This document shows positions 1 through 28,103 of a DNA stretch of 43,881 bases, piece after piece. The notes beneath the pieces are model-generated. The model had not been told where the DNA came from and did not search any database. It worked only from the letters and a program-made list of their open reading frames with translations. This DNA is from Alphaproteobacteria bacterium (GTDB lineage: Bacteria; Pseudomonadota; Alphaproteobacteria; Rs-D84): positions 1-43,881 of the forward strand of contig JAFRSF010000010.1 of the NCBI GenBank assembly GCA_017427715.1, read 5' to 3'. Made by a program: the position numbers and the translations under genes. Positions within the stretch are counted from its first letter, which is position 1. Every line of letters starts with the position of its first letter.

Positions 1-170
1 TCGTTATTTCAGATGTTTCGGTGCTTTTTGCATCGCTATCATCCCCAAATCTAATGGTTGGGGAGCCGTCGGTTATAAAACAGGGATAACCCGAAAGCCG
101 CGGAATCATACTTGACTGATTTATCAACTCCCCGACCGCCAGTGTTTTTGGCGGTTTTGTTTGTTTTTAT
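1..170 (+). promoter_or_regulatory. Structured leader RNA with terminator (element E1)
   Basis: This region folds as a leader ahead of the small gene at 184. A 10-bp stem pairs 56-65 with 128-137, including one G-U pair. It encloses a hairpin (69-76 with 86-94, one bulge) and a second hairpin (104-108 with 117-121, 8-base loop). The 3' strand of the closing stem overlaps the left arm of a rho-independent terminator (135-140 with 150-155, then a T-rich run), so the two cannot form together. A competing upstream hairpin (43-48 with 58-63) shares the 5' strand of the closing stem. The layout is that of an attenuator or riboswitch. A related element lies at 27926-28103. I do not recognise the class. 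The window edge cuts the 5' end, and a short frame at 13-54 could be a leader peptide or the tail of an upstream gene. Confidence 0.5.
134..170 (+). terminator. Rho-independent terminator directly before the gene at 184
   Basis: A 6-bp GC-rich stem (135-140 with 150-155) and a 9-base loop are followed by a T-rich run. It ends only a few bases before the AAAGGA ribosome binding site of the next gene, which is the position expected of a conditional terminator. Confidence 0.65.
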
Positions 171-27375: not shown

Positions 27376-27900
27376 TTAAAACTCTGTTTTAAAATCCATT
27401 TTTATAGCTTCTGGTGACGCTGATACCTGCATTCCATCGTATCTGCTTACAAACATCCAAGTAAACAGACCACTTATAGCGGCACCAGCGACAACATCAT
27501 GAAAATGGTGTTTTTCTGCCCGTATTCTTGTATAACCAGTAAAACCTGCCATCATATATGGGATTATCGCTCTTTTTATCCCATATCGTTTGTGTATAAA
27601 TGCTGCTCCGGAAACAGCACTGGCTGTATGCCCACTAGGAAATGAATTTTTATCACTTTTGTCTGGTCTGGGTTCCTTTATCGCAGATTTTAATCCAAAA
27701 ACAGTTAATTCCATACTGCCAAAAGAATAAATAAATTGTCTGACACTTTCAAAATCATTTTCGCTTATAGCCATTCCAAAGGCATACGTAGGAACCATTA
27801 CTTGTGTATAATTCCCAAGTTCTTCCAATGCCGAAATTGCGCATGCGTTTTTGCATATCATCGACAAAAGGATTATACCAAGGGTTCTAAACCTTGTCAT
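27376..27900 (-). CDS. PAP2-family membrane phosphatase
   Basis: 174 residues. A signal or anchor helix lies at the N-terminus. The three catalytic motifs are visible in order: KSAIKEPRP (motif C1, KX6RP), FPSGHT (C2, PSGH) and RIRAEKHHFHDVVAG (C3, SRX5HX3D, with Arg-Ile-Arg before the His/Asp). PAP2 enzymes of this size dephosphorylate lipid phosphates such as phosphatidate or undecaprenyl pyrophosphate, or act as acid phosphatases; the substrate is not evident. The ribosome binding site AAAAAAGGAG lies seven bases upstream and directly follows a terminator, so expression is probably controlled by the E2 leader. Confidence 0.85.
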   Translation of the reverse strand: MTRFRTLGIILLSMICKNACAISALEELGNYTQVMVPTYAFGMAISENDFESVRQFIYSFGSMELTVFGLKSAIKEPRPDKSDKNSFPSGHTASAVSGAAFIHKRYGIKRAIIPYMMAGFTGYTRIRAEKHHFHDVVAGAAISGLFTWMFVSRYDGMQVSASPEAIKMDFKTEF

Positions 27901-27925: not shown

Positions 27926-27954
27926 TAAATAAAAAGACCGCACGTTAGGCGGTC
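27926..27954 (-). terminator. Terminator at the end of the E2 leader
   Basis: A stem GACCGC (27954-27949) with GCGGTC (27941-27936) is followed on the minus strand by a T run. It ends about 12 bases before the PAP2 ribosome binding site. Confidence 0.8.
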
Positions 27955-28103
27955 GGGAGTTAGAAACGTCAGATATAATTGACTCCGTTGTCTTACGAGC
28001 AACAGCATCCCGACCAATCAAGTCAGGACATTTCGTAGCTTTTGTTATATCTCGGGTTTCTAAACCGATCTACTAACTATGTCTTACGCTTTATTATCAG
28101 CGC
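27926..28103 (-). promoter_or_regulatory. Structured leader RNA with terminator before the PAP2 gene (element E2)
   Basis: On the minus strand, 28015-28008 can pair perfectly over 8 bp with 27958-27951, enclosing a hairpin (28005-28000 with 27990-27985, one G-U) and a second hairpin (27983-27980 with 27971-27968, 8-base loop). The closing stem overlaps the terminator arm at 27954-27949. Two competing pairings exist. 28028-28022 pairs with the 3' part of 28015-28008 (7 bp, one G-U). 28063-28045 pairs with 27978-27960 (16 of 19 positions). The G-U pairs would be A-C mismatches on the other strand, which supports this orientation. The 3' half resembles element E1. It could be a cis-acting switch or an independent small RNA. 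Class unknown to me. Confidence 0.55.

Follow-up and report, generated by a model that had tools for sequence, protein, structure and literature searches.

Two alphaproteobacterial leader RNAs as likely host-adapted relatives of sRNA-Xcc1 and candidate antisense attenuators

We analysed a 43,881-nucleotide stretch of an alphaproteobacterial genome (contig JAFRSF010000010.1, referred to here as the window) that carries two related leader RNAs, E1 and E2. We consider it likely that both belong to a divergent, host-adapted branch of sRNA-Xcc1-related, C4/P4-CI-like self-complementary antisense leaders, which probably attenuate transcription. The assignment to such a branch is made because of three observations, namely the private key pairs found in this family, the homology of its core to sRNA-Xcc1, and the phage antirepressor loci at which sRNA-Xcc1 occurs. 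From comparison of the sequences we regard as established the anatomy of the element, the cognate-specific covariation of the keys, the homology, the preference of the keys for their own leader within a genome, and the mutual exclusivity of hairpin P5, the closing stem and terminator T2 by virtue of the bases they have in common. The simplest reading of these features would be an autogenous antisense attenuator, for which we infer termination at T2, the sign of the effect and the mode of action in cis or in trans.

In agreement with the original prediction, direct reading of the sequence confirms that E1 on the forward strand and E2 on the reverse strand end in the same string, AACTCCC(C)GACCGCC, that a closing stem surrounds two hairpins in both, and that the second hairpin has an 8-nt loop in each copy (TACTTGAC in E1, ATTATATC in E2), with one stem pair changed from A-T to G-C between them. 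In E1 the closing stem (56-65/128-137) delimits an sRNA-Xcc1-like core (56-137), recognised by its Rfam match and by covariation. Inside it are hairpin H1 (66-103), placed with core alignment A4 and comprising a bulged U, the internal loop AUAmAAyA / GAAAG and a GGG/CCC tip, and hairpin H2 (104-121; AATCA..TGATT). Upstream of the core we find hairpin P4 (19-35; CGGTGC TTTTT GCATCG), identified from the sequence and from the family alignment of 70 copies (A1), and hairpin P5 (43-63; CCCC..GGGG), a competitor of the closing stem that is supported by pairing across the family. The core is followed by a predicted intrinsic terminator, T2 (135-155), whose 5' arm has ACC in common with the closing stem. 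The closing stem had been proposed to compete with the terminator and with an upstream hairpin, and the common bases do make it mutually exclusive with both. The terminators stop just 5' of a Shine-Dalgarno sequence, as had also been proposed; in E1 this is the Shine-Dalgarno-like AAAGGA at 171-176, which belongs to the gene at 184-510, an open reading frame of 108 aa without a match in Pfam, PADLOC or PHROG. An ORF resembling this one is found after another leader copy (contig C34; L012, 17926-18243), and the keys of the two leaders are completely different.

The keys are two segments of the core, key a in the H2 loop and key b in the linker after H2, that are complementary to two segments of the same leader about 70-200 nt upstream, here called a' and b'. 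Key a of E1 (ACTTGAC, 110-116) has its complement, GTCAAGT, in the 5' half of the leader, and key b (TTATCA, 121-126) has its complement, TGATAA, in the loop of hairpin P2; both complements are located on another contig, C25. Positions 1-141 of the window are identical to the last 141 nt of C25 (an exact k-mer-like overlap), and because of this overlap the 5' half of E1 very likely lies on C25, and C25 and the contig of the window are very probably neighbours. The C25 part of E1 sits 3' of an apparent tRNA gene, and the 3' arm of P3 within it could pair with P4 of E1 to form a terminator-like stem, T1. The two leaders that had been delineated are thus real, but the elements are longer than described and E1 is cut by the contig end.

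In E2, all of whose features are on the reverse strand, both key/target pairs are inside the window: target a' (AGATATAA, 28052-28045) is complementary to key a (TTATATCT, 27978-27971), and target b' (TTAGAAAC, 28063-28056) pairs with key b in the linker (GTTTCTAA, 27967-27960). The core, assigned from sequence and homology to E1, spans 27951-28015 with a closing stem at 28015-28008/27959-27951; hairpin P5 (28008-28027) has its 5' arm at 28027-28022 and a 3' arm in common with the closing stem. The predicted terminator T2 (27954-27936) precedes a PAP2 family gene of 174 aa (27376-27900; Pfam PF01569, E=2.7e-16). The first hairpin of E2 is shorter than that of E1 and is without the internal loop. 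In a profile search of 303 kb of fetched loci, E2 was recovered at E=1.4e-8 by an HMM made from E1-type copies without E2; judged by such profile comparison, E1 and E2 are homologous beyond chance.

A pattern search for the end string common to E1 and E2 revealed more copies elsewhere in the genome. In order to describe the family, we used iterated HMM searches from E1-type copies and then a covariance model, R1, whose scores for E1 and E2 are not independent because both are in its seed. The model gave 10 matches, corresponding to 9 loci, in the 1-Mb genome of the window; all 35 genomes searched from the genus, including this one, carry between 1 and 51 copies, and family matches are present in 49 of 59 relatives and in 33 of 385 genomes sampled from the class. 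The highest copy numbers are 51, 47 and 31 (G014, G032 and G010), in genomes of about 1 Mb, which is very dense for one structured leader RNA. Matches to the core motif come mostly from gut, rumen and termite-gut Alphaproteobacteria, including Candidatus Enterousia. A viral scan with this motif returned seven hits, none of which matched the family HMM. The proposal of a structured regulatory RNA family is borne out by the many homologues and compensatory changes found in these covariance-model and HMM searches. At gathering score, the only Rfam class within the window is one tRNA; low-score Rfam hits of E2 (rimP, Trp_leader and others) look like terminator or chance matches and were discarded.

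Across the 70 copies of alignment A1 the full element measures about 200-240 nt. Its parts are arranged, 5' to 3', as a -10 box, P1, P2 (the loop of which is b'), a', P3, P4, P5, the core, T2, the Shine-Dalgarno sequence and the gene; the core itself consists of the closing stem, H1 with its conserved internal loop, H2 with key a in its loop, and the linker with key b, and the 5' arm of T2 is inside the closing stem. An ORF starts 30-45 nt 3' of most copies. Of 73 copies, 66 have a -10-like TAnnnT just 5' of the element, which supports the RNA strand that had been proposed. The closing stem is paired in 94.9% of cells, P5 in 94.5% and T2 in 97.1%; six pairs of the closing stem are changed on both sides, and none of 500 shuffles matches its observed covariation. 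For the whole structure, 33 of 50 pairs are changed on both sides and 94.3% of cells are paired, values of which none is reached in 500 shuffles, and sliding one strand by 1-3 columns lowers pairing to 34-43%. The shuffles ignore kinship, and relatedness is an unlikely cause of the covariation because of the slid controls and the many independent pair types. In the core alignment the tip pair of H1 switches from GC (35) to CG (16), and few unpaired parts are as conserved as the H1 internal loop, AUAmAAyA / GAAAG. A T1-like stem is found in 46 of 70 copies versus 5.0 in shuffles, a count confounded by the sequence similarity of P3 and P4; T1 was rejected as a general attenuator, being missing from many copies.

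The main feature of the leaders is the behaviour of the keys, which are hypervariable between the 70 copies and matched within each. Perfect complementarity of 7-11 nt links the H2 loop to the segment directly after P2 in most copies, and the linker is complementary to the P2 loop. The summed length of cognate helices is 472 for key a and 427 for key b, versus at most 276 and 274, respectively, in 2000 permutations. Double-sided changes occur in all seven key-a pairs and in four of five key-b pairs, and the majority of key-a positions have every one of the four Watson-Crick pairs (e.g. UA 26, AU 21, GC 7, CG 6). One could suppose that the switch operates just as originally predicted, with the two-hairpin domain and its closing stem set against the terminator and the upstream hairpin, and that sequences further 5' are irrelevant; the conserved overlap of closing stem and T2 fits this, but upstream targets that covary with loop and linker do not, nor does the appearance of the closing stem in just one of 70 predicted whole-leader folds, and we give this option hardly any credence. 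The earlier structural reading is correct as far as it went, but it missed the hypervariable segments that pair upstream, which are the best explanation of function.

Private targeting was judged by duplex energies in genomes with many copies. In three genomes the best target of a key is mostly the leader to which it belongs: this holds for 33 of 38 usable copies where copies are most numerous, and for 15 of 16 and 5 of 6 in the other two. The mean duplex energy is about -17 to -19 kcal/mol for cognate pairs versus -8 to -10 kcal/mol for other leaders. Leader pairs that are at least 90% identical elsewhere have only 54% of key positions in common; therefore the keys, both arms together, turn over faster than the scaffold. 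For instance, the proteins encoded downstream of L021 and L032 have nearly identical N termini, yet only half of the key positions of the two leaders are in common. Selection against cross-talk may be the driver of this turnover.

Folds were computed as RNAfold minimum-energy structures of full leaders, a model that leaves aside pseudoknots and folding during transcription. P5 together with T2 is predicted in 51 of 70 leaders and the key helices in 58 and 60 of 70, so that key helices, P5 and T2, a terminated state, form the favoured prediction. An antisense attenuator based on these parts would work as follows. The core domain would expose key a in the H2 loop and key b in the linker toward a' and b', and pairing of the core with a'b', whether in cis on the emerging transcript or in trans with processed core RNA that has accumulated, would set the formation of T2. 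By default the transcript would end at T2 and give a short RNA, and in many copies the same control would extend to a T1-like stem further upstream. Each gene would be kept low by its own RNA, in the manner of P4 CI (premature termination) and P1 C4 (ant RBS). If the pairing were broken and the closing stem formed, RNA polymerase would pass; the closing stem would win only if P5 or the keys were undone, or if the 5' part were removed as in the 88-nt sRNA-Xcc1.

The covariation is identical for a cis helix and for a trans duplex. It is possible, but in our judgment unlikely, that the leaders are purely cis-acting attenuators or riboswitches, in which the keys are a drifting long-range helix and a metabolite or protein bound at the H1 loop switches T2. 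The H1 internal loop is indeed strongly conserved though unpaired, and the predicted fold already contains the key helix, nested with P5 and T2; the keys, however, evolve faster than the remaining RNA even among near-identical leaders, which speaks against this reading.

The genes downstream of the leaders appear to encode mostly surface or secreted proteins, plus DNA-modification enzymes. A signal-like N terminus was found in 50 of 83 downstream proteins versus 5 of 31 ORFs of the window, by a crude test with a small baseline, and other products include DNA methylases, GIY-YIG proteins, glycosyltransferases, PAP2 proteins and outer-membrane proteins. No function common to these genes was found, unlike what is seen with metabolite riboswitches, and this too argues against a purely cis-acting switch. 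A further alternative is that mobile elements or prophage immunity loci left the leaders behind along with cargo genes, and that the leaders now have no regulatory role. Phage ancestry of the core is plausible, there are up to 51 copies per genome, and part of the cargo (superinfection immunity, methylases) is reminiscent of phage moron or defence genes. Against this, all helices and the exclusivity of P5, closing stem and T2 are kept through compensatory changes, promoter, keys and terminator are retained near-universally, most elements have a gene beginning 30-45 nt behind them, and the families listed for 78 downstream proteins (25 of 30) include no antirepressor; together these points make inert remnants highly improbable.

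The core of the family is homologous to sRNA-Xcc1, as judged from model searches in both directions. E1 matches Rfam RF02221 (sRNA-Xcc1) with 41.5 bits (E 3.2e-6), so the original statement that the RNA could not be matched to a known class is not supported. The gathering score of RF02221 is 53, E2 scores 19.6 bits and the best copy of the same genome 45.3 bits, the latter in a genome-wide search whose filters lose some copies, E1 among them; E1 and E2 are not formally assigned to RF02221 because both fall below this cut-off. A related alphaproteobacterial copy, L357, is above it with 56.2 bits and scores 43 bits with R1, and in the reverse search R1 finds phage sRNA-Xcc1 loci with up to 42 bits. 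The architecture of sRNA-Xcc1, a closing stem, two hairpins and an internal loop around a 3-bp tip, is present in E1. Distant alphaproteobacterial copies, which precede a glycosyltransferase gene and a cytosine methylase gene, have upstream key matches as well. The Trichodesmium MAG jk18x7bins.61 contains the exact module ATACAACAGGGTAAACCC[GA]AAAG at L223, L225, L227, L236, L254 and about 20 other loci, as part of a repeat that looks structured. Since this repeat is of another kind and lacks both closing stem and keys (L254 has no Rfam match), it was rejected as a family member; a larger repeated RNA may include it.

In annotated phage and plasmid records sRNA-Xcc1 is located directly 5' of ant, KilA-N or BRO genes, with Rfam scores of 65-86 bits. 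Among 58 proteins encoded after sRNA-Xcc1, mostly on viral contigs, the commonest Pfam domains were of antirepressor type, namely KilA-N (14), P22_AR_C (11), pRha (9), AntA (8) and Bro-N (8), with ORF6N also common. The key is present three times at phage sRNA-Xcc1 loci: one copy lies upstream, the loop holds its complement, and a further copy covers or adjoins the Shine-Dalgarno sequence of the gene, as in Aaphi23 (CAAACAG, CTGTTTG, CAAACAGGAG). The summed match of these triples is 527 across 80 loci versus at most 390 in 200 permutations. A separate RBS target of the phage core would be unneeded by a cis helix, a further point against the purely cis-acting reading. At loci L088-L093 (match at about 3000) a terminator-like stem and U run is seen between the upstream target and sRNA-Xcc1, with an alternative hairpin adjoining (GCGGAAATCCGC..AAGCGGTTTTTTT in L088), which suggests attenuation at these phage and plasmid loci also. 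The RNA has been described in Xanthomonas as 88 nt long with both ends mapped (PMC2996969) and has been reported 5' of symE in integron cassettes (PMC12444791); two bacterial sRNA-Xcc1 loci of our own set, L304 and L324, stand before ORFs that by eye are SymE-like, consistent with the published symE cassette. In the literature covered, which includes few subscription papers, we found none that names sRNA-Xcc1 together with an antirepressor.

We lean toward the reading that a phage immunity-type antisense RNA was domesticated to give, genome-wide, tens of privately keyed, mutually insulated switches that keep different surface or DNA-modification genes silent, one gene per switch; as the two arms of each pair co-evolve, the keys would be renewed and the copies would stay free of cross-talk. 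If this is true, the family and the sRNA-Xcc1 RNAs before antirepressors and symE would make up one widespread class of self-complementary antisense leaders. The findings suggest a testable function for sRNA-Xcc1, so far an sRNA without a known mechanism: at the phage loci it looks like an antirepressor RNA of the C4-like kind whose key recurs at the RBS. They also suggest that such an RNA left phage biology for multi-copy control in reduced-genome gut Alphaproteobacteria. The natural key pairs look orthogonal, and could be a resource for the study of cross-talk avoidance in paralogous antisense systems and for insulated RNA regulators.

The layout of C4 consists of two antisense segments with an upstream bipartite target (a1b1) in the same transcript, and by permutation and covariation the host family has two antisense segments and an upstream bipartite target of this kind. 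No match to the C4 covariance model (RF01695), the known class singled out in the original prediction, was found at E up to 10 in the genome of the window. Both C4 and sRNA-Xcc1 are among the motifs listed in Weinberg 2010. The C4 RNA of phages P1 and P7 is likewise a compact RNA that controls a gene through antisense sequences likely in loops and is type-specific, as in P1/P7 heteroimmunity; it acts at the ant RBS (PMC12197685). A target at the antirepressor RBS is found at most phage sRNA-Xcc1 loci, whereas in the host family no key complement at the RBS exceeds chance and no antirepressor is among the families listed for the downstream proteins. The CI RNA of satellite phage P4, likened here by description and not by sequence, is also a leader-processed antisense RNA with an upstream target (seqA), and its pairing with seqA and seqC leads to transcription termination (PMC4825925). 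Unlike P4, which has the downstream target seqC, the host family has its own intrinsic terminator, T2, and no downstream target (a2b2) above chance (329 versus a permutation maximum of 331, and 339 versus 354); because the a2b2 present in phages is absent, the phage mode of action is not simply transferable. IsrK of Gifsy-1 is similar, again by description and not by sequence, in being a leader RNA that exists in terminated and read-through forms and precedes an antirepressor-like gene (PMC4825925), but differs in that it activates its read-through mRNA.

The closest known relative is sRNA-Xcc1 itself, with which the host family has in common a closing stem round two hairpins, the AUACAAnA..GAA internal loop about a 3-bp tip, an antisense loop and linker, and an upstream target. 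The apical stem, however, is mostly GGG/CCC in the host family and CCC/GGG in sRNA-Xcc1, and the host family has two additions, P5 and T2, the latter an intrinsic terminator that shares bases with the closing stem. It has no RBS target above chance and reaches up to 51 copies per genome, and whereas sRNA-Xcc1 precedes antirepressors or symE, the host family precedes host genes.
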